NCBI RefSeq assembly: GCF_900188025.1
Contig: NZ_FZNO01000011.1
Location: 62,001-126,000 of the forward strand
Source of the DNA: Blastococcus mobilis
Lineage (GTDB): Bacteria; Actinomycetota; Actinomycetes; Mycobacteriales; Geodermatophilaceae
Direction: 5' to 3'
Length of the DNA: 64,000 bases
The notes under the pieces were generated by a model. That model was not told where the DNA came from. It did not search any database and was given only the letters and a program-made list of their open reading frames with translations. This document shows positions 17,811 to 55,830 of this stretch, in pieces. Numbering within the stretch: the stretch's first letter is position 1; every line of letters starts with the position of its first letter. A program made the position numbers and the translations under genes.

Positions 17811-18818
17811 TCAGCGGACGACGACGACGAACTCCTCGCGGGGGACGAACTCGCCGATCACCGGAGCTCCGGGCACCTCGCCGCCCAGCAGCAGCCCACC
17901 GGAGGTCTGGGCATCGGCCAGCAGCAGCGCCTCGTCCTCCGACACCGCGGACAGGTCGGTGTGCGGGCGGACCCAGTCGAGGTTGCGCCGCGTCCCACCG
18001 GACACGAACCCCGCGGCCAGCGCCTCCCGGGCCCCGGCCAGGTAGGGGACGGCGGCGGCGTCGACCACCGCGGTCACGCCGCTGGCCCGCGCCATCTTGT
18101 AGAGGTGCCCGAGCAGACCGAACCCCGTCACGTCGGTGCCGGCGCGGATCCCGGCGCCCACCGCGGCCTGCCCGGCGTCGCGGTTGAGCGCGGTCATGGA
18201 CGCGACCGCCTCCTGCGAGACCTCCCCGGTCGCCTTCATCCGGCTGTTGAGGACGCCGACCCCCAGCGGCTTGGTCAGGGAGAGCGCCGTCCCGGCCACC
18301 GCGGCGTCGTTGCGGATGATCCGGTCGAGGTCCACCAGGCCGGTCACGGCCATCCCGTACTTGGGCTCGGGGTCGTCGATCGAGTGCCCGCCGCCGACGT
18401 GGCAGCCGGCGTCCTGCGCCACCTCCAGGCCGCCGCGCAGCACCTCGGCCGCGAGCTCGGCGGGCAGGACGTCGCGCGGCCAGCCCAGCAGGTTGACGGC
18501 GACGACCGGGGTGCCGCCCATCGCGTAGACGTCGGACAACGCGTTGGCCGCGGCGATCCGGCCGAAGGCGTACGCGTCGTCGACGACGGGGGTGAAGAAG
18601 TCGGTGGTGAGCACCAGCCCCTGGCCGGTCGCGATCCTGACCACTGCGGCGTCGTCGCCGTCGTCCAGGCCGACGACCAGTTCGGCGTTCGGTGACGTCG
18701 GGCCGGTGAAGGTGAGCCCGGCGACGACGGACTCGAGCTCGCCGGGCGGGATCTTGCAGGCGCAGCCGCCGCCGTGCGCGTACTGGGTGAGGCGGGTGTG
18801 GGTGGGGGCGGTAGTCAC
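17811..18818 (-). CDS. selD: Selenide, water dikinase (selenophosphate synthetase)
   Basis: Makes selenophosphate, the selenium donor for Sec-tRNA, from selenide and ATP; 335 residues. The N-terminal active-site loop HGGGCACK (residues about 15-22) has cysteines at both positions where relatives carry Cys or Sec, so SelD itself is not a selenoprotein here. Later motifs are DDAAVVRI, TDFFTPVVDD and GGGHSIDDPEPKYG. The GTG at 18818 follows a TAGATT -10 box (18826-18831, minus strand) at leaderless spacing. It lies 10 bases downstream of the WYL gene and is divergent from tRNA-Sec-selA-selB, completing the selenocysteine locus. Confidence 0.95.
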   Translation of the reverse strand: MTTAPTHTRLTQYAHGGGCACKIPPGELESVVAGLTFTGPTSPNAELVVGLDDGDDAAVVRIATGQGLVLTTDFFTPVVDDAYAFGRIAAANALSDVYAMGGTPVVAVNLLGWPRDVLPAELAAEVLRGGLEVAQDAGCHVGGGHSIDDPEPKYGMAVTGLVDLDRIIRNDAAVAGTALSLTKPLGVGVLNSRMKATGEVSQEAVASMTALNRDAGQAAVGAGIRAGTDVTGFGLLGHLYKMARASGVTAVVDAAAVPYLAGAREALAAGFVSGGTRRNLDWVRPHTDLSAVSEDEALLLADAQTSGGLLLGGEVPGAPVIGEFVPREEFVVVVR

Positions 18819-19523: not shown

Positions 19524-19619
19524 GGAGGCGTCAGGGTGTCTGGTGACCCCCGCGGCCTCTAAAGCCGACGTGACCGAGTACCTCGGTCAGGCGGGTTCGA
19601 TTCCCGTCCGCCTCCGCCA
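19524..19619 (+). tRNA. selC: tRNA-Sec with anticodon CUA (reads UAG)
   Basis: A 96-base tRNA including encoded CCA (19617-19619). Acceptor stem GGAGGCG/CGCCTCC is 7 pairs with a T-C mismatch at the eighth. The D-arm contains GGGT/ACCC. Anticodon stem CGGC/GCCG surrounds the loop C-T-C-T-A-A-A, with anticodon C19559-T19560-A19561. The variable arm is an 8-bp stem TGACCGAG/CTCGGTCA with a 3-base loop, the long arm expected of tRNA-Sec. The T-arm is GCGGG/CCCGT around TTCGATT. Length, long arm and position directly before selA-selB identify it as tRNA-Sec. The loop pattern CU-NNN-AA is conserved, but the anticodon is CUA instead of UCA, so it should decode UAG. Confidence 0.93.
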
Positions 19620-19650: not shown

Positions 19651-20961
19651 ATGAGCGCCGATCCCCGCCGGCAGGTGCCGCGCACCGACACCCTGCTCGC
19701 CGACCCCCTGCTCGCCGCCGCCGGCGAGCGGCTGGGGCGCGGCCTGGTCAAGGGTGCCGTCCAGCAGGTGCAGCAGCGGATCCGGGACGGCGAGGTCGCG
19801 CCCCCCGACGCGGTCGGCGCGGTGCTCGCCTCGCTCCCGGGCACCGCGAGCAGCCTGCGCCCGGTCCTGAATGCGACGGGCGTGCTGGTGCACACCAACC
19901 TGGGCCGGTCGCCCCTGTCGGCCGCGGCCGTCGAGGCGATCACCGCGGCGGCCGGTACCACCGACGTCGAACTGGACCTGACCACGGGACGGCGCGGCCC
20001 GCGGGGCGAGGCCGCCATCGCCGCCCTGCTCGCCGCGGTACCGGCCGCCGAGGCCGCGATCGTGGTCAACAACTGCGCCGCCGCGCTCGCCCTGGTGGCC
20101 ACCGCACTCGGGCAGGGACGCGAGCTCGTCCTGGCTCGGGGCGAGCTGGTCGAGATCGGCGACGGCTTCCGCATCCCCGAACTGCTGGCCTCCACCGGCG
20201 CCCGGCTGCGCGAGGTCGGGACGACGAACCGGGTCACGCTCGCCGACTACCGCAGCGCCCTCGGCCCCGACACCGGCGCCGTCCTCAAGGTGCACCCGTC
20301 GAACTTCGTCGTCCGCGGATTCACCCGGCAGGTCGAGGTCGCTGAACTCGCCGCCGCCCTGGCCGGCACCGGCACGCCACTGGTCGCCGACATCGGCTCC
20401 GGCCTCCTGCGCCCGCATCCGCTGCTGCCCGAGGAGCCGGACCTGCAGAGCACGCTCGCCGCAGGCGCGGACGCCGTCGTGGCCAGCGGCGACAAGCTGC
20501 TCGGTGGTCCCCAGGCGGGACTGGTCCTGGGCCGCGCCGAGCTGGTGCAGCGGCTGCGACGGCATCCGCTCTACCGCGCCCTACGGGTGGACAAGACCAC
20601 CCTCGCGGCGCTCGAGGCGACGCTGCGCGGCCCGCTGCCGCCGGTCCAGGAGATGCTCGCCGCCGACCTCGACGGTCTGCGCTCGCGCGCCCGCTCTCTG
20701 GCGGCGCGCCTCACGACGGCGGGGATCGAGGCGGTGGCCGTGGACGCGGACGCCCGGGTCGGCGGGGGAGGCGCGCCGGAACAGCCGCTGCCGAGCGCGG
20801 CGGTCGCGCTGCCGGCGTCCTTCGCGGAGCGCCTGCGCCGCGGCGCCCCACCGGTGGTGGGCTACGTCGAGGGCGACCGCACGCTGCTGAACCTGCGCAG
20901 CGTTCCGCCGTCCGCCGACGACGACCTCGCCGCGGCCGTCCTGGCGGTGGCCGCGCCGTGA
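19651..20961 (+). CDS. selA: L-seryl-tRNA(Sec) selenium transferase
   Basis: PLP enzyme that converts Ser-tRNA-Sec to Sec-tRNA-Sec using selenophosphate; 436 residues. The N-terminal domain is followed by the fold-type-I core with LNATGVLVHTNLGRSPLS near residues 73-90. The Schiff-base lysine is Lys282 in SGDKLLGGPQAG. The ATG at 19651 lies 31 bases after the tRNA-Sec 3' end, so tRNA and enzyme may share a transcript; TACGCT at 19637-19642 could also serve as its own -10. The stop overlaps selB by 4 bases. Confidence 0.96.
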   Translation: MSADPRRQVPRTDTLLADPLLAAAGERLGRGLVKGAVQQVQQRIRDGEVAPPDAVGAVLASLPGTASSLRPVLNATGVLVHTNLGRSPLSAAAVEAITAAAGTTDVELDLTTGRRGPRGEAAIAALLAAVPAAEAAIVVNNCAAALALVATALGQGRELVLARGELVEIGDGFRIPELLASTGARLREVGTTNRVTLADYRSALGPDTGAVLKVHPSNFVVRGFTRQVEVAELAAALAGTGTPLVADIGSGLLRPHPLLPEEPDLQSTLAAGADAVVASGDKLLGGPQAGLVLGRAELVQRLRRHPLYRALRVDKTTLAALEATLRGPLPPVQEMLAADLDGLRSRARSLAARLTTAGIEAVAVDADARVGGGGAPEQPLPSAAVALPASFAERLRRGAPPVVGYVEGDRTLLNLRSVPPSADDDLAAAVLAVAAP

Positions 20962-22724
20962 GCAGCGACGTCGACCACATGGACGTCATCGCGACCGCGG
21001 GGCACGTCGACCACGGCAAGTCCGCGCTGGTGCGTGCGCTCACCGGGATGGAGCCCGACCGCTGGGCGGAGGAGCGCCGCCGCGGGCTCACGATCGACCT
21101 CGGTTTCGCCTGGACGACGCTGCGGTCCGGGCGCCGGGTCGCGGTCGTCGACGTGCCCGGCCACGAGCGGTTCGTCGGCAACATGCTCGCCGGGGTGGGC
21201 CCGGTGCCCGCCGCGTTGCTGGTGGTGGCGGCCGACGACGGCTGGTCGGCGCAGACCGCGGAGCACGTCGCGGTCCTGGACGCGCTGGGGGTGCGGCACG
21301 CGCTGCTGGCGGTGACGAAGTGCGACCTCGCCGACCCCCGCCCGGTCATGGCGGACGTCCGCGAGCGGCTGGCCGCCACGTCCATGGGGGAGGTCCCCGC
21401 GGTCGCCGTGAGCGCCCTGACCGGTGCCGGCGTGCCCGGGCTCGATGCCGCGCTCGAGACACTGCTGGCCGCGCTGCCCCCCGCCGACCCCGCCGCGCCG
21501 GTGCGGTTGTGGATCGACCGGGCCTTCACCATCCGCGGCGCCGGCACCGTGGTGACCGGCACCCTGGCCGCCGGCAGCGTCGCCGGTGGGGACCGGTTGC
21601 TGCTCGGCGACCGCGAGGTCGTCGTCCGGCGGGTCCAGTCCCTCGGCGCGCCGGTCGAGCGGGCCTCGGCCACCGCCCGCGTGGCGCTCAACCTCCGGGA
21701 CGTCGCGGTCGAGGAGCTGGCCCGCGGCGATGCCCTCCTGACCCCCGGCGCGTTCCGCCGGACCGAGGTCGTGGACGTCACCCTGACCGCCGAGCCGGAG
21801 GAGCGGCTGCCGGCCCAAGCGATGGTCCACGTCGGCTCGGCGACGGTCGGCGCCCGGCTGCGGCCGCTGGACGGTGCCGTGGTGCGGCTGCGCCTGCTGT
21901 CGCCCCTGCCCCTGCGGGTGGGGGACCGGTTGCTGCTGCGCGACCCGGGGGCCCGACGGGTCCTCGGCGCCGACGTCCGGGACGTCGATCCGCCAGAGCT
22001 GCGGCGGCGGGGGGCCGCCCGACAACGCGCAGCAGAGCTCGCCGCCCAGCCGGAGGGGGTGGCCGGCGCCGCGGCCGACCTGGCGCGGCGGCGAATCGTC
22101 CGGGCCGACGACTTCGCGGTCATGGGCTGGCCGGTGCCCTCCGACGCCACCCTGCACGGGCCCTGGCTGATGACGGCCGGGCTCGCCGACGAACTCGCGG
22201 CCCGCGTACCGGACGTCGTCACCCGTTACCGGAGGCTCCGTCCGCTCGAACCGGGTCCGCCGGTGGAGGTCGTGCGCCGGGCACTGGAACTGCCGGACGT
22301 CGAGCTGGTGAGCGCGGTCGTCCGACCGCCGCTCGTGCTCCGTGAGGGCCGGGTCGTCGACGGGACGGCGGGGCTGCCGGCGGAGGTGCAGCGCGCGGTC
22401 GACGGCATCCGGGCCCGCCTGGCCGAGGACCCGTTCGCGGCCCCCGAGGCGCCCGAACTGGTGGCCGCCGGGCTCGGGGTGCGGGAACTGGCGGCCGCCG
22501 CGCGCAGCGGACAGCTGGTGCGGATCGCCGACGGCGTCTATCTGGCGCCGGGGATCGCGGAGGAGGCGCGCAGACGGCTGGCGACGATCGCGCAGCCGTT
22601 CACCCTCAGCCAGGCCCGGCAGGCGTGGGGGACCAGCCGCCGGGTCGCCGTCCCGCTCGCGGAGTGGCTGGACGCCCAGGGCGTCACGGTCCGGCTGCCG
22701 GACAACACCCGCCGCCTGCGCTGA
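20958..22724 (+). CDS. selB: Selenocysteine-specific elongation factor SelB
   Basis: GTPase that delivers Sec-tRNA to the ribosome by binding the SECIS hairpin; 588 residues. G motifs: GHVDHGKS at 15-22, DVPGH at 65-69, TKCD at 120-123. EF-Tu-like domains II and III follow (RAFTIRGAGTVVTGTL near 190). The C-terminal region carries the winged helices that bind SECIS RNA (LAEDPFAAPEAPELVAAGLGVRELAAAARSGQLVRIADGVYLAPG, and TLSQARQAWGTSRR near the end). In this organism it must act at UAG rather than UGA codons, given the CUA anticodon of the adjacent tRNA. The GTG start overlaps selA by 4 bases. Confidence 0.96.
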   Translation: MSSDVDHMDVIATAGHVDHGKSALVRALTGMEPDRWAEERRRGLTIDLGFAWTTLRSGRRVAVVDVPGHERFVGNMLAGVGPVPAALLVVAADDGWSAQTAEHVAVLDALGVRHALLAVTKCDLADPRPVMADVRERLAATSMGEVPAVAVSALTGAGVPGLDAALETLLAALPPADPAAPVRLWIDRAFTIRGAGTVVTGTLAAGSVAGGDRLLLGDREVVVRRVQSLGAPVERASATARVALNLRDVAVEELARGDALLTPGAFRRTEVVDVTLTAEPEERLPAQAMVHVGSATVGARLRPLDGAVVRLRLLSPLPLRVGDRLLLRDPGARRVLGADVRDVDPPELRRRGAARQRAAELAAQPEGVAGAAADLARRRIVRADDFAVMGWPVPSDATLHGPWLMTAGLADELAARVPDVVTRYRRLRPLEPGPPVEVVRRALELPDVELVSAVVRPPLVLREGRVVDGTAGLPAEVQRAVDGIRARLAEDPFAAPEAPELVAAGLGVRELAAAARSGQLVRIADGVYLAPGIAEEARRRLATIAQPFTLSQARQAWGTSRRVAVPLAEWLDAQGVTVRLPDNTRRLR

Positions 22725-46556: not shown

Positions 46557-46608
46557 CGTGGCGAGGGTTACGAGATGGCCTCGTTTCGAGCCGACGGACC
46601 CAAACTCT

Positions 46609-46622
46609 TGACACGCATGTCA
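46609..46622 (+). promoter_or_regulatory. Operator-like site B (TGACAC-GC-ATGTCA)
   Basis: Third match to TGAYRYNNRYGTCA. It overlaps a TTGACA -35 hexamer (46608-46613) ahead of the second Liv-type operon, so binding would block RNA polymerase. Confidence 0.55.
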
Positions 46623-46673
46623 GTTGTGCCAGAGCCTCCTGTGAGCCACCTCACCCGACAGGGGGATCGCTTC

Positions 46674-47489
46674 GTGCAGCCAGCCACCGCGAGCCAGCCG
46701 ATCGCCGCCGACCGCCCACCGCCGCCCGCCCTGAGTGCCGAGGGGCTCTCGCTCTCCTTCGGCGGTGTGAAGGCCCTGCAGGACGTCACGATGGAGCTCC
46801 GGAAGAGCGAGCTGCTCGCCGTCATCGGGCCGAACGGAGCGGGGAAGACCTCCCTGCTGAACTGCCTCACCGGGTTCTACCGGCCTCAGCAGGGCCGGGT
46901 CGTCCTCGACGGCGCGAAGGTGATCTCCGGCCTGCCGACGCACAAGATCGCGCGGCTGGGCGTGAGCCGGACGTTCCAGGGGACGCACCTGTTCACCGGC
47001 ATGACGGTCCTGGACAACATCATGATCGGCCGCTACGCCCACATGCGGACGAACCTGGCGCAGGCGTTCCTCTACGTGCCGTGGACGCGCCGCGAGGAGG
47101 TGCAGCACCGCGAGTTCGTCGAGGACATCATCGACTTCCTCGAGATCACCACGGTGCGCAAGCGGGTTGTCGGTGAGCTGGGCTACGGCCTGCGGAAGCG
47201 GGTGGACCTCGCCCGGGCACTCGCGATGGAGCCCTCGGTCCTCCTGATGGACGAGCCGATGGCCGGCATGAACCTCGAGGAGAAGGAAGACCTCGCCCGG
47301 TTCATCCTCGACGTCCGCGAGGCACGCGGCATCCCCATCGTCATCGTCGAGCACGACATGGCCGTGGTCATGGACATCGCCGACCGGATCGTCGTCCTCG
47401 ACTTCGGCCGCAAGATCAGCGAGGGCACTCCTGCCGAGGTCAGCGGCGACCCGGTCGTCATCAAGGCCTACCTCGGGGAGGCGCATTGA
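46674..47489 (+). CDS. ABC transporter ATP-binding protein, LivG type
   Basis: ATPase of 271 residues of the second Liv-type importer. Walker A GPNGAGKTS near 52-60, LivG-specific GVSRTFQGTHLF, signature region ELGYGLRKRVDLARAL, where LSYG is replaced by LGYG, and Walker B VLLMDEPMAGMN. The GTG at 46674 is chosen because GGGGGA lies 7 bases upstream; an ATG at 46575 would start upstream of the promoter and operator, and a GTG at 46641 lacks a ribosome-binding site. It overlaps the CoA ligase gene by 4 bases. Confidence 0.9.
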   Translation: MQPATASQPIAADRPPPPALSAEGLSLSFGGVKALQDVTMELRKSELLAVIGPNGAGKTSLLNCLTGFYRPQQGRVVLDGAKVISGLPTHKIARLGVSRTFQGTHLFTGMTVLDNIMIGRYAHMRTNLAQAFLYVPWTRREEVQHREFVEDIIDFLEITTVRKRVVGELGYGLRKRVDLARALAMEPSVLLMDEPMAGMNLEEKEDLARFILDVREARGIPIVIVEHDMAVVMDIADRIVVLDFGRKISEGTPAEVSGDPVVIKAYLGEAH

Positions 47490-49486
47490 ACGCGCACGGC
47501 TCGACCGCGACGGCCACCGCCGCCGAGACCGGGACCGAGGCCGCGGTCCGCACCCTGCCGCAGATCCTGCTCGAGCAGGCGCGCCGCCGGCCGACGGAGG
47601 TCGCGCAGCGCGAGAAGGACTTCGGGCTGTGGCGTCCCTACACCTGGTCGGAGGTCGTGTCCCAGGTCCGGAATCTCGCCCTGGGCCTCCGGGAACTGGG
47701 GCTCCGGCGGGGCGAGACCGTCGGGATCATCGGCGAGAACGAGGTCGAGCACTTCTGGACCGAGTACGCGGTCCAGGCCCTCGGCGGCAAGGTCGTCTCG
47801 ATGTACCCCGACCTCACGTCGGAGGAAGCCAAGTTCCTGCTCGAGGACTCCGAGGCCGTCGTCGTGGTCGCGGAGGACCAGGAGCAGGTGGACAAGATCC
47901 TCGAGATCCTCGACGAGCTGCCGGCGGTCCGCGCGGTCGTCTACTGGGACGACCGCGGCATGTGGGCCTACCGCGACGCGCGGCTGCGGACCCTCCAGCA
48001 GGTCCAGGCCGCGGGGGAGAAGGTGCACGAGGCGCAGCCCGAGCTCTTCGAGAGCATCGTCGGCGAGGGCGACCCCGGCGACGTCGCCGTCCTCAGCTAC
48101 ACGTCGGGCACCACCGGCCGCCCCAAGGGCGTCGTGACCACCCACCGGATGCTCCTGGACAACGCGTACCGGGTGCTCGACGCCATCCCGCTCAAGCCTG
48201 GGAGCGAGTACCTCAGCTACATCTCCCCGGCGTGGGCGACCGAGCAGATCTTCGGCGTCACGATGGGGCTGGTCGTTCCCTTCGTCCTCAACTTCCCCGA
48301 GGAGCCGGAGACCGTCCGGGAGAACATCCGCGAGCTGGCCGTTGACGCGCTCGTCTTCAGCCCTCGGCAGTGGGAGAGCCTCGCCGCCTCCGTGCAGGGG
48401 AAGATGGCCGAGGCCGGCCGGGTGCGCCGGGCGATCTACGGATGGGGTCTGAAGGCCGGGCACACCTACAAGGTCGCCCGCCTCGAAGGCCGGCAGCCGG
48501 GTGTGTTGGCGCGGCTGAACCACGCGCTCGCCCACCGGGTCGTGCTCCGTCCCGTCCTGGACCAGCTGGGCCTGATCAAGGCCCGCTTCGCCGTCTCCGG
48601 CGGCTCCTCCATGGCGCCGGACGTCTTCCGCTTCTTCCACGCCCTGGGCGTCCCCCTGCGCAACATCTACGGCACCAGCGAGATGGGGCTGTTCACCCTG
48701 CACCAGGGCGACACCTACAACGTGGAGACGGTCGGCCACTGGATGAAGACGCGGCCCGCCATCGGGCCGCCGCTGGAGTCGCGCATCAGCGAGGAGGGCG
48801 AGCTCCAGGTGCGCGGCGGCGCAGGCTTCTCCGGCTACTACAACCAGCCGGAGAAGAGCGCGGCGAAGTACACGCCGGACGGCTGGTTCCAGACCGGCGA
48901 CGCGGTCACCGTCACCGACGACGGCGAACTGGTCTTCCTCGAGCGGCTGGAGGACATGCGCCGGCTGGCCACCGGCGTGCCGTTCCCGCCCCAGTTCATC
49001 GAGATCCGGCTCCGCTTCAGTCCCTACATCCGGGACGTGATGGTGCTCGGTGACGAGACCCGCGACTTCGTGGCGGCGCTGGTCAACATCGACGGCGAGA
49101 TGATCGGCAACTGGGCCGAGGAGCGGGGGATCGGCTACACGACCTTCCAGGACCTCTCCCAGAAGCCCCAGGTCCGGGAGCTGATCCGCCGCGAGATCGA
49201 CCGGATCAGCGAACTGCTGCCCGAGGGCAGTCGAGTACGGCGCTTCATCAACCTGCCCAAGGAACTCGACGCCGACGAGGGCGAGCTGACCCGCACCCGC
49301 AAGCTCCGCCGCGACTTCCTGGAGGTCCGCTACAAGGACCTCATCGAAGGCATCTACGACGGGAGCTCCACCGTCGACGTCGAGATCCCCATCACCTACC
49401 AAGACGGGCGCAAGGGCGTGCTCCGCGCGAAGACCGTCGCTACCGACGTCGACCAGCCCGTTCCGGGCGGAGAGGAGGTCCGGTGA
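47486..49486 (+). CDS. AMP-dependent acyl-CoA synthetase embedded in the transporter operon
   Basis: ANL-superfamily acyl-CoA ligase of 666 residues, in the long-chain/bile-acid-type size range. The P-loop-like AMP motif YTSGTTGRPKG starts at residue 205; NIYGTSEMGLFT and GWFQTGDAVTVTDDGELVFLERLEDMRRL are the later adenylation motifs. Lying between LivG and LivH, it probably traps the imported substrate as a CoA ester, a design known from vectorial acylation. TTG start at 47486, coupled to LivG by overlap; it overlaps the permease gene by 4 bases. Confidence 0.9.
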   Translation: MNAHGSTATATAAETGTEAAVRTLPQILLEQARRRPTEVAQREKDFGLWRPYTWSEVVSQVRNLALGLRELGLRRGETVGIIGENEVEHFWTEYAVQALGGKVVSMYPDLTSEEAKFLLEDSEAVVVVAEDQEQVDKILEILDELPAVRAVVYWDDRGMWAYRDARLRTLQQVQAAGEKVHEAQPELFESIVGEGDPGDVAVLSYTSGTTGRPKGVVTTHRMLLDNAYRVLDAIPLKPGSEYLSYISPAWATEQIFGVTMGLVVPFVLNFPEEPETVRENIRELAVDALVFSPRQWESLAASVQGKMAEAGRVRRAIYGWGLKAGHTYKVARLEGRQPGVLARLNHALAHRVVLRPVLDQLGLIKARFAVSGGSSMAPDVFRFFHALGVPLRNIYGTSEMGLFTLHQGDTYNVETVGHWMKTRPAIGPPLESRISEEGELQVRGGAGFSGYYNQPEKSAAKYTPDGWFQTGDAVTVTDDGELVFLERLEDMRRLATGVPFPPQFIEIRLRFSPYIRDVMVLGDETRDFVAALVNIDGEMIGNWAEERGIGYTTFQDLSQKPQVRELIRREIDRISELLPEGSRVRRFINLPKELDADEGELTRTRKLRRDFLEVRYKDLIEGIYDGSSTVDVEIPITYQDGRKGVLRAKTVATDVDQPVPGGEEVR

Positions 49487-50367
49487 TCCAGCTCATCGAG
49501 TACGCGCTGAACGGGGCGCTGCTAGGCCTGTTGTACGCGCTCATCGCCATGGGCTTCGTGGTGATCTACCGAGCATCGAAGGTCTTCAACTTCGCCCAGG
49601 GCGAGCTGGTGGTGGTCGGCGCCTTCCTCGTCTGGTTCTTCACCCTCGACCTCGGCCTGCCGCTCTACGTGGGCCTGGCGCTGGCGCTCGCGGGCGCGGC
49701 GATCTTCGGGCTCGTCATCGAGCCCCTGCTGTTCCGGCGCCTGGTGGGGCAGTCCACCTTCGCGATGGTCATGGTGACGATCGGCCTGCTGATCCTGCTG
49801 CGCGGGCTGGTCCTCGTGATCTTCGGGCCGTCGGTCCGTCCCTTCCCGGCACTCATCTCCACGAGCCCGGTGAACATCGGGGACATCACGCTCAACCGGG
49901 GCCTGCTCTTCGGCGGGATCTTCACGATCGTGCTCGCGATCGGCGTCTCCCTGTACTTCTCGCGGACCCGGCCCGGACTGCGCATGACGGTGGTCGCGGA
50001 GGACCACCAGATCGCCCAGTCCATGGGCATCTCCGTCCGGCGGTCCATCGCCTACGCCTGGGCCATGGGCATGGTGCTCTCGACGTTGGCCGCCGTGTTC
50101 TACCTGAACGGCAAATCGGTCACCTTCCTGGTCTCCGAGATCGGTTTCGCGGCGCTCCCCGTGGCGCTGCTGGCCGGCCTGGAGTCGGTGGGTGGCCTTA
50201 TCCCGGCCGGGATCATCGTCGGGGTGGCCCAGGGGCTCGCCGCCGGCTACATCGACCCGCTCATCGGCGGGAGTTTCTCGGCCGTCTTCCCGTACCTCGT
50301 CATGGTGACCATTCTTTTCCTCCGGCCGTCGGGTCTCTTCGGCTGGCGGATCGTCGAGAGGGTGTAG
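49483..50367 (+). CDS. ABC transporter permease, LivH type
   Basis: Membrane permease of 294 residues, about 8 helices; starts IQLIEYALNGALLGLLYALIAMGFVVIYRASKVFNFAQGE, the LivH signature. The coupling loop GLRMTVVAEDHQIAQSMGISVRRS lies near residues 166-188. GTG start overlapping the ligase stop by 4 bases. TAG stop, with the next ATG immediately after. Confidence 0.92.
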   Translation: MIQLIEYALNGALLGLLYALIAMGFVVIYRASKVFNFAQGELVVVGAFLVWFFTLDLGLPLYVGLALALAGAAIFGLVIEPLLFRRLVGQSTFAMVMVTIGLLILLRGLVLVIFGPSVRPFPALISTSPVNIGDITLNRGLLFGGIFTIVLAIGVSLYFSRTRPGLRMTVVAEDHQIAQSMGISVRRSIAYAWAMGMVLSTLAAVFYLNGKSVTFLVSEIGFAALPVALLAGLESVGGLIPAGIIVGVAQGLAAGYIDPLIGGSFSAVFPYLVMVTILFLRPSGLFGWRIVERV

Positions 50368-51426
50368 ATGTCCATGCAGCCGGCGGGCGTCTTCGCCCAG
50401 AGCTACGTGCGGGACATGGCGATATTCCGCACCTGGAAGCAGGGACTCGCCCTGGGCATCTTCCTGCTGGCACTGCTCCTCGTCCCCGCAGTGCTCGGTG
50501 CCCGCTACGTCGCCATCGCCAACATCATGCTGATCACCGCGGTCGTGGTCCTCGGACTGCAGATCACGACCGGCTTCGCGGGGCAGGTGAACCTGGGTCA
50601 GGCGGCATTCATGGGAATGGGTGCCTACACGGCCGGGGCGTTGTCCTCCGGGCAGCAGTGGCCGTTCCTGGTCACGGTCCCGATCGCGGGCATCGTGGCG
50701 GCCCTGTTCGGCGCCATCTTCGGACTGGCGGCCGTCCGGATCCGCGGCTTCTACCTCGCGTTGACGACCATCGCCGCGCAGTTCATCTTCGTGTTCGCCG
50801 TCCTGAACCTGCCCACGTCCTGGACCGGCGGGGCGCAGGGCCTGCGCGTCGAGACGGCGTCGATCTTCGGCTTCGTGTTCAACACCGACAACCGCATGTA
50901 CTACCTGATCCTCGCGATCACGGCGATCATGACGATCGGGGCCTACGGGATCGTGCGGAGCCGGCACGGGCGCGCCTTCGTCGCCGTCCGGGACGACGAC
51001 CTGGCGGCCGGCTTCACCGGCGTGAACGTGGTGGGCACGAAGGCGACGGCGTTCTTCGTCGGAGCGTTCTACGCCGGCGTCGGTGGTGCGCTCTGGGCCT
51101 ACTACATCCGGTTCGTCTCCGCCGACCAGTTCACCTTGTTCAACTCGGTCTACTACATGGGAATGGTCATCGTCGGCGGCCTGGGTTCCATCGCGGGCGC
51201 ATTCGTGGGCGTGTTCCTGATCCGCGCCGCCCAGGAGATCCTCACCGCCGTCGGCCCCTCGATCGCCGACGTGTTCCCGGCGCTCGGCAGCAGCGTCGTC
51301 TTCGCCAGCGTGAACATCGTCCTGGGCGCGGCGATCGCACTGATGCTCATCCTCGAACCCCGCGGCGTGATGCACCGCTACAACGTCCTCAAACGCGCCT
51401 ACCGATTGTGGCCCTATCCGCATTAG
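50368..51426 (+). CDS. ABC transporter permease, LivM type
   Basis: Membrane permease of 352 residues. LivM signature ITTGFAGQVNLGQAAFMGMGAYTAGAL near residues 66-92; coupling helix RSRHGRAFVAVRDDDLAAGFTGVNV near 194-218. The ATG follows the livH TAG directly. TAG stop. Together with LivG, LivH, LivF and the lipoprotein it forms a complete importer. Confidence 0.92.
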   Translation: MSMQPAGVFAQSYVRDMAIFRTWKQGLALGIFLLALLLVPAVLGARYVAIANIMLITAVVVLGLQITTGFAGQVNLGQAAFMGMGAYTAGALSSGQQWPFLVTVPIAGIVAALFGAIFGLAAVRIRGFYLALTTIAAQFIFVFAVLNLPTSWTGGAQGLRVETASIFGFVFNTDNRMYYLILAITAIMTIGAYGIVRSRHGRAFVAVRDDDLAAGFTGVNVVGTKATAFFVGAFYAGVGGALWAYYIRFVSADQFTLFNSVYYMGMVIVGGLGSIAGAFVGVFLIRAAQEILTAVGPSIADVFPALGSSVVFASVNIVLGAAIALMLILEPRGVMHRYNVLKRAYRLWPYPH

Positions 51427-51492
51427 CCGGGCCCACCTGTCCGTCGCTCCTCCGATCCGCATCCTGGCTACCTCCTAGAGATGGAGAAAGAA

Positions 51493-52764
51493 ATGGCGAG
51501 CAAGAGAAACGGCCGTGTCCTCGCGGCCTCCGTGGCGGCGGCAACCCTGCTCACCGCCTGCGGCGGCGACGACGAGGGCGGTGGCGGCGGTGGCGGCGGC
51601 GAGGGGGCGTCGGGGGGCGCGACCTACAACCAGGCGTGGCTGGTCGACTTCTCCGGGCCGTACGCCGACGTCTACGACGAACTGCAGGCGGCCCGCGAGG
51701 CGACCAACGAGTGGTGGAACGACCAGGTGGGCAGCGAGATCGGCGTCCAGCTGTCGGGCGAGGTGTACGACCACCGCTACGACGCCGCCCAGGTCGCGAG
51801 CCTCTGGCCGGGCATCCTCTCCGAGATCCAGCCGATCATGGCGATGGGCGTCGGCGGTCCCGACGTCGCCGCCCTCCAGCAGCGGCTGCCCAGCGACAAG
51901 GTGCCGATGCTGATGAACACGGCCGGCTACGGCTACGCCTGGGAGCCCGACCAGTGGGTGTTCAACCCACGGGCCACCTACGTCCACGAGGCCGCCGGTT
52001 TCGTCGACTGGTTCAAGGAGGCCCAGAAGATCGACGGGCCGGTGAAGGTCGCCATGATCTCCTCCGAGGCGTCCCCCGCCTACGTGGACATGGTCGACGG
52101 CATCGAGGGCTTCGCGGAGGCCAACCCGGACGTGGCCGAGGTGGTCGCGGTCGAGTTCGCCGAGGTGCAGCCGGCCGACCTGAGCAGCCAGGTGCGCCGG
52201 ATCGTGGGCGCCGAGGCGGACGTGATCCTCATCCAGACCAACACCACGCAGGCCGTCGTCACCATGCAGGCCCTCGAGTCGCTCAACCAGGACATCCCGA
52301 TCATGTTGAGCTCGCACAACAGCCTGCAGGCCACGGCCGACGCCGCCGGTGGGCTGGAGAAGCTCGAGGGCGACTTCGAGTCGTTCGGCTTCGTCGTCCC
52401 CGCCGAGGAAGAGGGCGAGGCGTACGAGTTCTACAAGATGCTGACCGAGGACTACGGCCTCGAGGCGGAGTGGACGGTGCCGACGGTCCAGGGCATCGCG
52501 CACCAGCTGTACGCCAACCGGGTCGTCGAGCAGGCGGTCGAGATGGTGGGTGCCGAGAACCTCACCGGCCAGGCCATCTACGACGCGATCCTCGAGGTCC
52601 AGCTGACCTCCGAGGACCTGTTCGGGTTCCTGCCCGACCTCGACTGGACGCCGGAGGCGCCGTTCCCGACCAGCGGGCTCACCACCAGCATCGGGACGGT
52701 GGCCGACGGCACGTACGCGCGCGCCGAGCTCAACCACGAGATCCCGGAGCTCGAGAAGTGGTAG
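51493..52764 (+). CDS. ABC transporter substrate-binding lipoprotein
   Basis: Type I periplasmic-binding protein of 423 residues. The signal peptide has lipobox L-T-A-C (Cys near residue 21) followed by a Gly/Glu linker. The mature region (TYNQAWLVDFSGPYADVYDELQAAREATNEWWNDQVG) resembles the group whose operons contain a CoA ligase. The ATG at 51493 is chosen over that at 51481 because GGAGAA lies 6 bases before it. TAG stop; the next GTG overlaps it. Confidence 0.87.
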   Translation: MASKRNGRVLAASVAAATLLTACGGDDEGGGGGGGGEGASGGATYNQAWLVDFSGPYADVYDELQAAREATNEWWNDQVGSEIGVQLSGEVYDHRYDAAQVASLWPGILSEIQPIMAMGVGGPDVAALQQRLPSDKVPMLMNTAGYGYAWEPDQWVFNPRATYVHEAAGFVDWFKEAQKIDGPVKVAMISSEASPAYVDMVDGIEGFAEANPDVAEVVAVEFAEVQPADLSSQVRRIVGAEADVILIQTNTTQAVVTMQALESLNQDIPIMLSSHNSLQATADAAGGLEKLEGDFESFGFVVPAEEEGEAYEFYKMLTEDYGLEAEWTVPTVQGIAHQLYANRVVEQAVEMVGAENLTGQAIYDAILEVQLTSEDLFGFLPDLDWTPEAPFPTSGLTTSIGTVADGTYARAELNHEIPELEKW

Positions 52765-53648
52765 CAGGTCCCGCGGCACGGTCCGGGGGTGCCCTCGCCG
52801 AGGGCGCCCCCGGGTCGGCCCCGTCCACGGCTGACCAGGGCGGCCCCGGCGGGTCGCCGCTCCTCGAGCTCAGCAACGTCGAGGTGACCTACAGCGGGGT
52901 CATCCTGGTCCTCAAGGGCATCAACATCACGGTGCCCCAGCGGGGCTGCGTGGCGCTCCTGGGCCCCAACGGCGCCGGCAAGAGCACCACCCTCAAGGCG
53001 GTCTCGGGCGTGCTCAAGACCGAGGAGGGCCTCGTCAGCGCCGGCCAGGTGCGCTTCGCCGGCGAGCGGATCGACACGCTGGCGGCCGAGCGGACCGTCC
53101 GCAAGGGCATCCTGCACGTGATGGAGGGCCGCAAGGTCCTCGAGCACATGACGGTCGAGCAGAACCTCGTGGCCGGTGGGCACCTGCAGCGGAGCAAGGA
53201 CGCCAAGGAGTCGCTCGAGCTGACCTACGAGTACTTCCCGCGGCTGGCCGACCTGCGCGGCCGGACGTCCGGTTACCTCTCCGGCGGCGAGCAGCAGATG
53301 CTCGTCATCGGCCGCGCGCTCATGGCCAGGCCGAAGCTCATGATGATCGACGAGCCGTCCCTCGGCCTGGCGCCGCTCATGGTCGAGGAGATCTTCTCGA
53401 TCCTGCACCGGCTCCGGCAGGAGGACCTGGCGCTGGTGATCGTGGAGCAGAACACCGCCGCGGCTCTGGCGCTGGCCGACTACGGGTACGTCCTGGACAA
53501 CGGCCGCATCGTGCTGGACGGCACGGCCGAGAGCCTGCGGTCCAACGAGGACATCCGCGAGTTCTACCTGGGCCTCGGCGCCACGGGGGAGCGCAAGAGC
53601 TTCCGCGACATCAAGCACTACCGCCGCCGGAAGCGGTGGCTGGGGTGA
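52758..53648 (+). CDS. ABC transporter ATP-binding protein, LivF type
   Basis: ATPase of 296 residues with a 35-residue low-complexity start. Walker A GPNGAGKST near 69-77, signature LSGGEQQMLVIGRALMA, Walker B LMMIDEPSLGLAP, and LivF segment VMEGRKVL. The C-terminus carries an extra basic tail (KSFRDIKHYRRRKRWLG). The GTG at 52758 has GGAG upstream and overlaps the previous TAG. Its stop overlaps the selenoprotein GTG by 4 bases, placing the selenoprotein in this operon. Confidence 0.92.
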   Translation: MVAGPAARSGGALAEGAPGSAPSTADQGGPGGSPLLELSNVEVTYSGVILVLKGINITVPQRGCVALLGPNGAGKSTTLKAVSGVLKTEEGLVSAGQVRFAGERIDTLAAERTVRKGILHVMEGRKVLEHMTVEQNLVAGGHLQRSKDAKESLELTYEYFPRLADLRGRTSGYLSGGEQQMLVIGRALMARPKLMMIDEPSLGLAPLMVEEIFSILHRLRQEDLALVIVEQNTAAALALADYGYVLDNGRIVLDGTAESLRSNEDIREFYLGLGATGERKSFRDIKHYRRRKRWLG

Positions 53649-54567
53649 GCCGCGACGGCGGGGCCGGCGGCGACCGGGATCCGATCGACTACATCGCCCG
53701 CACGCGGGACACGTACACCAAGCTGGGCTACCAGCCCTATGCGTGGGTGCACAGCGACGAGGACCCGCCCATGGCGGAGCTTTCGAAGCCGCTGTCGGAG
53801 TGCCGGCTCGGCCTCGCCTCCTCTGGTGGCGTGTACCGCGTCGGTCAGGTGGCCTTCCACTAAAGGACGACACGTCCTTCCGGGCGATCGACACGTCGGT
53901 GCCGACCTCGGAGCTCCGGGTCACGCACTTCGCGTACGACACGACGGATGCGCGCCGCGATCCCAACTGCGTCCTGCCGCTGGACCCGCTGCGGGACCTC
54001 GTGTCGGAGGGGCGGATCGGAGCGCTCGCGCCCACCGCGTTCGGTTGCATGGGCGGCGTCTACTCCGCGCGCCGGGTGCGGGAGCAGCTCGCTCCCGAGC
54101 TCGCCCGGCACATGCTGGCGGAGGGGATCGACGCCGCCCTGCTGGTGCCCGTCTAGCCGGTGTGCCATCAGTCAGTTGGACTGATCGCGCGTCATCTGGA
54201 GGCCGCGGGCCTCCCCACGGTCACGCTGTCGAGCGCGCGGACGATCACCGCCGCCGTCCGTCCGCCGCGGAGCGTGTTCGTGGACTTCCCCCTCGGCCAC
54301 ACGGCGGGACCGCCCGGCGACCCCGCCGCGCAGGCGGCCGTCGTGAGTGCGGCGCTGGACTGCCTGGAGACGGCCGCGAAGCCGGGGACGATCGTCGATC
54401 TCGACCTGACCTGGCCCGGTGGTCCGGGCTGGAAGCGCGAGGACGCCGGCGAGACCCGGAAGCCCCGCGACGACACACCGCAGTACCAGCACGACGACGA
54501 CCGGGTGGCCGCCGAGGCTGCGCACCGGGCCGGACGCTGCCGCGCCTGCATCGGCATCGACGGCTGA
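53645..54567 (+). CDS. GrdB/PrdB-family selenoprotein with UAG-encoded selenocysteine (frameshifted)
   Basis: Glycine/betaine/sarcosine/D-proline reductase selenoprotein B-family protein. Segment 1 (53645-53860; DPIDYIARTRDTYTKLGYQPYAWV, CRLGLASSGGVYRVGQVAFH) runs into TAA at 53861. Segment 2 continues the same protein in the -1 frame from 53860 (LKDDTSFRAI, VTHFAYDTTDARRDPN). It meets TAG at 54154-54156 after AALLVPV, and the frame continues PVCHQSVGLIARHLEAAGLPTV to TGA at 54565. With both events bridged the product has 307 residues, with Sec171-P-V-Cys174 as the redox motif. A SECIS-like hairpin follows the TAG. GTG start coupled to livF. The TAA frameshift may be a sequencing indel or an inactivating mutation; the TAG is the predicted Sec codon. 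The substrate is unknown. Confidence 0.82.
53855..53866 (+). other. Apparent -1 frameshift point in the selenoprotein gene
   Basis: Reading CAC at 53858-53860 then TAA ends frame 2; slipping back one base gives CTA-AAG-GAC and restores the family sequence FH-x-KDD with normal length. A missing base after CAC explains it (for example CAC-TAC-AAG or CAC-CTA-AAG before loss). Confidence 0.65.
54154..54156 (+). other. In-frame TAG predicted to encode selenocysteine
   Basis: The TAG falls between conserved LLVPV and PVCHQ segments of the selenoprotein B family, at the position of the redox Sec/Cys, and matches the CUA anticodon of tRNA-Sec at 19524-19619. Confidence 0.85.
54157..54193 (+). promoter_or_regulatory. 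SECIS-like hairpin downstream of the TAG
   Basis: Apical stem ATCAGTC/GACTGAT (54167-54173 with 54179-54185) with 5-base loop AGTTG, 10 bases after the TAG. Below a C-C mismatch, further pairs including G-T wobbles extend the stem to 54159/54193. Placement just 3' of the codon and a GU-containing apical loop fit bacterial SECIS elements bound by SelB. Confidence 0.7.
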
Positions 54568-54678: not shown

Positions 54679-55830
54679 GTGAGCATGGACGCCACGTCGT
54701 ACGAGAGCTTCAGGACCGGCCTGTTCGAGGCGATCTGGCGGGATCTCGACCCGCTCGAGGAAGAGATCGAGAACACCGAGAGCCTGCCGTACGACCGGCT
54801 GATGCCGCTGCTGCGCGGGATGCGGGCGTTCGGGCTGACCATCCCGGAGGAGTACGGCGGCGTCGGGCTGTCGATGTCGCAGTACCTGCCGGTGCTCGGC
54901 GAGTTCGCGAAGGTCCAGGGCGGCATCCGCGTCGTCGTCCACGTCCACAACTCCATGGCGCACGCCCTCTGGGAACTGGGCAACGAGGAGCAGCGGAAGG
55001 CGGTCCTCCCCGGCTGCGTCGACGGCACGAACTCGGTGGCCTTCGCCCTGACCGAGCCCGACCACGGCAGCGGGGCGGACCTCGGCACGACGATCGTGCG
55101 CGACGGCGACGACTACGTGATCAACGGCCGCAAGTGGCTGATCACCAACTCCGACTTCGCCACCCACTTCATCGTGTTCGGCAAGACCGACCCCACCGGC
55201 GGCGAGGAGGCGGTCAGCGCCGTCCTCGTGGAGCGGGACACCCCGGGATTCACCATCGAGGCGCTGCCGGAGACCATGGGCTGCAAGGGCGGGCAGCACG
55301 GTCTGCTGACCTTCGTCGACGTCCGCGTGCCGGTGGCCAACCTCCTCGGCGAGGAGGGGCGGGGCCTGGCGCAGATGGAGCAGGCGCTGGAGATCAGCCG
55401 GGTCTTCATCGCGGCCACGTCGCTGGGCACCGCCGAGCGGTCGCTGGAGCTCGCGCTGCAGCACGCGAAGGAACGGGTGACCTTCGGCAAGCCCCTCGCC
55501 GCCCGGCAGGGCATCCAGCGCTACCTGGCCGAGATGGCCACGGACGTCTACGCGCTCCGGAACATGATCAGCGACGCCGCCGAGAAGTGGGACCGGGGGC
55601 TGCGCATCCCCGCCGAGGCATCGATGTGCAAGCTGTTCGGTCTCGAGGCCGTGGGGCGGGTGACCGACCGGGCTCTCCTGGTGTTCGGGGGCATCGGCTA
55701 CACCCGCAAGCACCCGATCGAACGGCTGTACCGCGACGCGCGGCTGAACTGGCTGGAGGAGGGGCCGCCCACCATCCAGTACATGGTCGCCGCGGGCGCG
55801 CTGCTGAACGGTTACGAATGGGACCGGTGA
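54679..55830 (+). CDS. Acyl-CoA dehydrogenase
   Basis: FAD enzyme of 383 residues that oxidises an acyl-CoA to the enoyl-CoA. Standard blocks: FALTEPDHGSGADLGTT (FAD/substrate region), WLITNSDFATHFIVFGKT, RVTFGKPLAARQGIQRYLAEMATDVYALR, and the C-terminal RDARLNWLEEGPPTIQ with the predicted catalytic Glu in the EEG segment. The GTG at 54679 (or ATG at 54685) is chosen because operator C at 54630 lies inside the longer TTG-start frame from 54601. It overlaps the SDR gene by 4 bases; first gene of a six-gene operon. Confidence 0.92.
   Translation: MSMDATSYESFRTGLFEAIWRDLDPLEEEIENTESLPYDRLMPLLRGMRAFGLTIPEEYGGVGLSMSQYLPVLGEFAKVQGGIRVVVHVHNSMAHALWELGNEEQRKAVLPGCVDGTNSVAFALTEPDHGSGADLGTTIVRDGDDYVINGRKWLITNSDFATHFIVFGKTDPTGGEEAVSAVLVERDTPGFTIEALPETMGCKGGQHGLLTFVDVRVPVANLLGEEGRGLAQMEQALEISRVFIAATSLGTAERSLELALQHAKERVTFGKPLAARQGIQRYLAEMATDVYALRNMISDAAEKWDRGLRIPAEASMCKLFGLEAVGRVTDRALLVFGGIGYTRKHPIERLYRDARLNWLEEGPPTIQYMVAAGALLNGYEWDR

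Follow-up and report, generated by a model that had tools for sequence, protein, structure and literature searches.

Introduction

Hairpin-dependent insertion of Sec driven by SelB is a known bacterial pathway. UAG-decoded selenoproteins of Geodermatophilaceae were reportedly described by Mukai et al. in 2016. The tRNA-Sec of this family carries the anticodon CUA, and the accessible text of the closest study, with reference to Mukai et al., names FDH, a UGSC-motif protein and AhpC, and no PrdB-like protein, as UAG-selenoproteins (Santesmasses et al., 2017; PMC5330540). A second described group comes from marine metagenomes where, according to the accessible text of two papers, the proline reductase PrdB selenoprotein family is abundant, has its Sec in a UxxC motif and includes some Cys homologues (PMC1088965, PMC2398784). 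This marine family was assigned to pfam07355 in the 2008 paper (PMC2398784).

We have analyzed a stretch of 64,000 nucleotides of the soil actinobacterium Blastococcus mobilis, referred to here as the window, that contains a PrdB-like gene with an in-frame TAG. UAG-Sec recoding is already known in Geodermatophilaceae; judging from the sequence comparisons described below, the PrdB-like protein is a new case, and the residue written by its TAG is almost certainly Sec. No earlier report of a UAG-coded PrdB-like protein was found in the accessible text of the open-licence literature. With the published UAG-selenoproteins the locus shares the tRNA-Sec with CUA, the TAG at the Sec site and a bSECIS after the codon (there in AhpC, as far as the accessible text of PMC5330540 goes), but here one column could be followed across relatives with TGA, with TAG and with Cys, and TAG occurs in several PrdB-like subfamilies. 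The UxxC motif is common to this protein and to the marine PrdB-type family as it appears in the accessible text, while the Sec codon here is UAG. With D-proline reductase PrdB (TIGR04483) and glycine reductase GrdB it has in common a homologous core and a Sec redox motif, although it scores far under the PrdB cut-off and its motif reads U-P-V-C-H-Q-S. The case would extend the short list of known natural UAG-selenoproteins by one protein family, and UAG-coded PrdB-like genes escape both gene callers and searches based on Cys or TGA. The features of the window are collected in Table 1.

Table 1. Features of the window, with positions counted from its first nucleotide
Feature	Position	Strand	Remarks
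selD-type gene	17811..18818	-	PF00586/PF02769, AIR-synthase-related
tRNA-Sec, anticodon CUA	about 19524..19615 (to 19619 at widest)	+	Rfam 67 bits against a cut-off of 47
selA	19666..20961	+	PF03841, E 1.6e-98; start approximate, taken as first residue of the N-terminal domain match
selB	20958..22724	+	SelB winged-helix domain
Branched-chain-type ABC transporter (two ATPases, two permeases, binding protein) and AMP-binding ligase	46575..53648	+	upstream of, and overlapping, the PrdB-like gene
PrdB-like gene, N-terminal piece	53645..53860	+	GTG start, 72 codons, then TAA; residues in frame in B. tunisiensis
Frame break	53858..53863	+	one nucleotide short compared with the intact B. tunisiensis gene
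PrdB-like selenoprotein gene (predicted), main piece	53860..54567	+	open to TGA 54565-54567 except for the in-frame TAG
TAG, predicted Sec codon	54154..54156	+	U in motif VPV-U-PVCHQSVGL; homologue codon column
bSECIS-like stem	54167..54185	+	7 pairs, 5-nt loop, directly 3' of the recoded codon
C-terminal CRAC motif (CxxC)	54538..54549	+	read from sequence

Results and Discussion

A PrdB-like reading frame that continues across a TAG

The piece encoded in the TAG frame reaches by itself 41.7 bits with PF07355 (GRDB superfamily), against a gathering score of 22. Its best NCBIfam match was TIGR04483, the PrdB equivalog, with an E value of 1e-38 and 133.2 bits, and the intact protein of B. tunisiensis reached 163.4 bits, both against a cut-off of 300. 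By these profile scores the protein is a member of the PF07355 superfamily, and since it passes the cut-off of the superfamily and misses that of the equivalog we call it PrdB-like and not PrdB. The preliminary description of this DNA had spoken of the GrdB/PrdB family, which stands at the level of the superfamily; full identity with the PrdB of D-proline reductase (133-163 bits, far under 300) was rejected. The piece is 235 residues long and the TIGR04483 alignment covers its residues 3-181; as the TAG is residue 99, the match spans the TAG on both sides and the earlier view of two halves of one conserved family is upheld. The TAG itself is present in frame 53860-54567 as had been claimed, preceded by AALLVPV and followed by PVCHQSVGLIARHLEAAGLPTV.

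A search for the partner subunit PrdA matched 0 of 11 genomes and also 0 of 14 control genomes, i.e., the control was silent. Comparison with the PDB sequences gave no relatives, the sole match up to E 1 having an E value of 0.78, and comparison of an AlphaFold model (mean pLDDT 73) with the PDB folds gave no match at E <= 0.001, the best being 1.7e-3.

The TAG stands at a Sec/Cys column

A scan of the species-genome collection gave 490 candidate stretches and from these 141 relatives, of which the best 80 were analyzed. At the column of the TAG, these best 80 of 141 relatives had TGA in 71 cases, Cys in seven, Thr in one and TAG in one (B. tunisiensis), that is, a Sec or Cys codon in 79. The two peptide patterns used in the search excluded the Sec column, and therefore this agreement, as read from the aligned codons, exceeds chance. 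The earlier proposals that the TAG occupies the redox residue of a U-P-V-C motif, and that homologues aligned across it should have Cys, TGA or TAG at that column, both agree with these counts. By the titles of their records, the TGA loci among the best 80 of 141 belong to Proteobacteria, Myxococcota, Acidimicrobiales, Chloroflexi and others. Two single loci deviate: L103 has Thr (ACT) in place of Sec, and L127 has TGA at the column while the Cys of UxxC is missing.

Within Geodermatophilaceae, a search of 112 genomes found nine PrdB-like matches in seven genomes. Seven of the matches are in genomes with the CUA tRNA-Sec (one each in the window's own genome G000, in B. tunisiensis G011 and in G015, two each in G117 and G149), and all of them have TAG at U-P-x-C; the two others, in G037 and G043 of genus g6, have TGA at this column. 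They fall into subfamilies with the motifs VPVUPVCH, VATUPVCH together with VATUPACH, TPTUPWCT, and APAUPDCC. The last includes a related pair with a codon switch, APA-TAG-PDCCRN in G117 (genus g5) and APA-TGA-PECCRN in G037 and G043 (g6); the tRNA-Sec is CUA in G117 and UCA in G043, and none was found in G037. A class-wide search of 394 genomes found a homologue in one genome besides the window's own, and that one was Cys-coded. A quick tree of 89 rows was made without L127; some of its long branches meet, so that its deep branching order is uncertain. In it the window and B. tunisiensis form a pair at 99 among TGA rows, and TGA and TAG require at least three changes over 79 rows.

These data bear on an alternative, namely a plain nonsense mutation at the TAG of a gene in decay. 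The window copy does have a break elsewhere, but B. tunisiensis, whose gene is unbroken, has the TAG at the Sec column as well, and so do five further homologues from CUA genomes. The codon column contradicts such a mutation, which we consider very improbable and have rejected.

Two further candidates were discarded. An apparent UAA-Sec case in G086 turned out to be the C-terminal stop, the in-frame TAA lying there while the column has Cys, and an extra TGA in G149 lies past the conserved core, off the Sec column.

A hairpin conserved in the Sec-coded relatives

The stem found after the TAG (AUCAGUC-AGUUG-GACUGAU) is part of a longer fold of -19.5 kcal/mol with a z value of -1.9, 9 of 200 shuffles being as good. 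We compared it over an alignment of 67 Sec-coded sequences composed of the window, L056 and 65 of the 71 TGA loci. L083 and L105 (51 bases identical to the kept L079 and L098), L091 (close to L089), the mutually identical L116 and L119 (close to L115) and L127 (without the motif C) were left out. Pairing was found in 97.9% of the cells, and in 97.1% with the dropped rows back (73 rows), while sliding one partner of the stem by 1-3 columns left 45% or less paired. Double changes affected three of the seven pairs in 18 cells of the 67 sequences. The covariation score was 0.176 versus 0.087 (sd 0.009) in the shuffles, none of 500 reaching 0.176. Two plain counts were unexceptional in shuffle control (a): the number of pairs with double changes was reached by 103 of 500 shuffles and that of further pair types by 331 of 500. 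In the Cys control of eight rows (the seven named Cys loci and G095), 58.9% of the cells pair and there are no double changes. The alignment thus indicates that the hairpin is kept through compensatory changes in the Sec-coded relatives and not in the Cys-coded ones.

The TAG subfamilies of G015, G117 and G149 and the TGA genes of G037 and G043 were outside this alignment and their pairs were counted separately. All seven pairs can form in G015 and in the first G149 gene, six in the second G149 gene, five and four in the two genes of G117, and three in the TGA genes of G037 and G043. A bSECIS-like hairpin is thus found in the window gene and its close relatives, with an incomplete stem in other TAG subfamilies, and the more distant Sec-coded genes L216, L217, L218, L013 and L014 may have another or a shifted SECIS, if any. 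When a covariance model built from the alignment was run over 273,911 bases, it hit six sites at E <= 1, each of them at a PrdB-like gene. Two of these, in the window and in B. tunisiensis, had been used for training; two more belong to the TAG genes of G015 and the first of G149, and the Cys-coded genes of G086 and G095 gave weaker hits. The model missed the remaining five Sec-coded genes of the scanned stretches. No Rfam family covers the element.

The hairpin also leaves its trace on codon usage. The window has a GC content of 72.7%, and within 10 codons after the TAG there is a cluster of rare codons (CAT 4.8%, TCA 1.2%, GTT 1.3%, GGA 5.2%, CGT 4.3% and again CAT 4.8%, as shares of the codons of each amino acid in 14 genes of the window), which the hairpin explains.

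The decoding apparatus in the window and its genome

The preliminary description had treated the TAG gene as an independent match to a tRNA with the anticodon CUA. The window indeed contains, besides the gene, an Rfam tRNA-Sec with CUA together with SelA, SelB and the SelD-type gene (Table 1), the last being presumably selD by its family and its position beside selA and selB. ARAGORN also calls a tRNA-Arg at 19950-20043 on the minus strand, antisense within selA, which has no Rfam match at the gathering threshold and is probably spurious.

The same code is found in a second selenoprotein family. The FdhA of the window's genome (G000 C61:17756-18496) has TAG at its Sec site, QARI-TAG-HSATVPGLG, as it is in G011 (two genes, L210 and L214), G015 and G029, while the site has TGA in G095 and G023, which are UCA genomes. 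UAG still serves as a stop: the 44 well-scored gene calls of the window (GC-based predictions made in this analysis) end in TGA in 36 cases and in TAG in 8.

ARAGORN labels the CUA tRNA-Sec as tRNA-Pyl, a label that is a likely source of wrong pyrrolysine annotations in Geodermatophilaceae, and PylS matches below the cut-off occur in all four genomes examined (best E 2.1e-6), both of which could be read as UAG standing for pyrrolysine here. As 13 of 14 controls give matches as well, we interpret the weak ones as other synthetases. Over the cut-off, PylS was found in none of the four Geodermatophilaceae genomes and in one of the 14 controls, presumably the Methanosarcina. Moreover, the tRNA passes the Rfam cut-off for tRNA-Sec (Table 1) and the column is UGA or Cys in the relatives, with a single Thr. 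With no PylS over the cut-off in the four genomes, pyrrolysine was rejected; its probability appears negligible.

A frame break in the window copy

In the preliminary description positions 53645-54567 were a single frame, with the U at residue 171. This does not hold, as the frame starting at 53645 (whose GTG overlaps the TGA stop of the upstream LivF-like ABC-transporter ATPase gene) ends at TAA 53861-53863, and the TAG frame, which is open from 53440, can be joined to it only by a -1 shift at 53858-53863; the residue number crosses this break, which went unmentioned there. The break lies 98 codons upstream of the TAG. In B. tunisiensis DSM 46838 (G011) the gene runs in a single frame through the site, with 88% identity over the C-terminal part.

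To see which frame the upstream part belongs to, the count of open codons was uninformative: all 78 relatives have at least 110, but the TAG frame of the window passes too, with 238 in what is a shadow frame. Consequently we used the position of an N-terminal motif, Y-[I/M]-x6-Y, 140-175 codons upstream. It is in the frame of the Sec or Cys codon in 73 of 78 relatives, five lacking it in that interval, whereas in the window it appears only in the other frame and not in that of the TAG. A stricter version of the motif matched 31 of the 78, and the other 47 show a similar motif in frame on inspection.

The break raises the question of whether the window copy was recently inactivated, in which case UAG-Sec would be true of the family but translation here would stop after 72 codons and no selenoprotein would be made. 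The TAA in the N-terminal frame and the missing nucleotide relative to B. tunisiensis (Table 1) speak for it. The gene also looks dispensable, given that within the window's genus a homologue at E <= 1e-6 was found only in G000, G011 and G015 of the 16 genomes searched. Against it, dN/dS versus B. tunisiensis is 0.13 over the 60 codons that precede the break and 0.17 over 53863-54564, the hairpin is letter-identical in the two strains over alignment columns 1-47, and a draft assembly of 88 contigs can hold single-base errors. These ratios indicate purifying selection, with respect to the B. tunisiensis gene, upstream and downstream of the break, which has therefore either arisen very recently or is an error of the assembly. 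The window copy may therefore be a fresh pseudogene or an artefact of the assembly, and we rate a recent inactivation at a little under an even chance.

Anticodons of tRNA-Sec across Geodermatophilaceae

The predicted use of UAG for Sec in PrdB-like genes follows a boundary inside the family. A CUA tRNA-Sec pattern was found in 101 of the 112 Geodermatophilaceae genomes, in nine of the 12 genera, and a UCA pattern in eight, seven of them in genera g6, g9 and g11 and one, G029, also with CUA. Four of the 112 genomes had neither pattern, all with a completeness of 82% or less. Of 55 tRNA stretches that were fetched and read directly, 49 had CUA, all within the nine CUA genera; the other six were two UCA, three CUUCAAC (UCA) read by eye and, in G045, a different tRNA with UGA. 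In a set of 30 tRNA loci that read UCA, seven are from g6, g9, g11 and G029, and the remainder belong to other families within the order. In the three genera that keep UCA the PrdB-like genes, where found, keep TGA. The codon switch is thus mapped to a boundary between nine CUA and three UCA genera of a single bacterial family, and related genes on either side make the route of stop-codon reassignment directly testable.

The change from UGA to UAG needs two base changes and hence implies an intermediate. One scenario is that the conversion was repeated (at least three changes on the tree) after the anticodon switch, with the hairpin of the window's subfamily staying in place, and that G029 may decode two stop codons as Sec; we regard this combination as unlikely. 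G029, a core Geodermatophilaceae, has a tRNA-Sec(CUA) and an extra tRNA-Sec(UCA) (L191:1173-1263, C17; L177, C11). The extra tRNA-Sec(UCA) is located in an IS-rich stretch with a GC of 0.61-0.75 that opens a contig whose GC is for the most part 0.72-0.81, and one SelB over the cut-off was found in this genome. A different situation is that of G007 (window's genus, 88% completeness), with two different CUA tRNA-Sec genes (L150, L155), possibly a mixed assembly.

Proposed mechanism and function

The codon column, the tRNA anticodon, the sel genes, the conserved hairpin and the matching code of PrdB-like genes and FdhA are all features of the sequences themselves. On this basis the gene very probably encodes a PrdB-like redox selenoprotein with a UAG-written Sec, decoded by tRNA-Sec(CUA), SelA, SelD and SelB with the help of the hairpin, UGA being the ancestral codon. 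SelA and SelD would charge tRNA-Sec(CUA) and SelB would carry the charged tRNA, recognise the hairpin 3' of the UAG and insert Sec there in competition with termination, UAG elsewhere remaining a stop. Sec would originally have been written UGA in this protein family. In the core Geodermatophilaceae the anticodon of tRNA-Sec would have switched from UCA to CUA, with TAG in the selenoprotein genes to match. What we infer is the insertion of Sec in the PrdB-like protein, its redox chemistry and any substrate.

As to the function, the protein would act through its U-x-x-C plus a C-terminal C-x-x-C. In the AlphaFold model of the B. tunisiensis protein, which is of medium confidence, the U-x-x-C (residue 173) is located between a strand (166-169) and a helix (174-189), and the C-terminal CxxC is present in 8 of 11 aligned Sec-coded rows, with one CxxxC and two rows that end earlier. 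This placement, together with the C-terminal motif, suggests that the protein is most likely a selenol/thiol reductase.

The neighbours give hints of a substrate. Downstream of the window gene are an SDR, a thiolase and a CoA-ligase; an acyl-CoA-dehydrogenase at 54684-55830 is a reading by eye, family scans of the scanned stretch having given none. In B. tunisiensis the region upstream has gene calls of similar size and an acyl-CoA-ligase match, and downstream there are caprolactamase/acetophenone-carboxylase-like and F420-type genes. The ABC transporter upstream (Table 1) and the downstream genes in both strains hint that an organic acid or amide may be imported and broken down. Clustering of the neighbours at 81 loci (the window and the best 80 of 141 relatives) revealed no partner gene that many of them have in common. 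Leaving aside the gene itself and a cluster that looks antisense, the commonest clusters were two, each present at 19 of the 81 loci, which by eye only are enoyl-CoA-hydratase-like and SDR-like.
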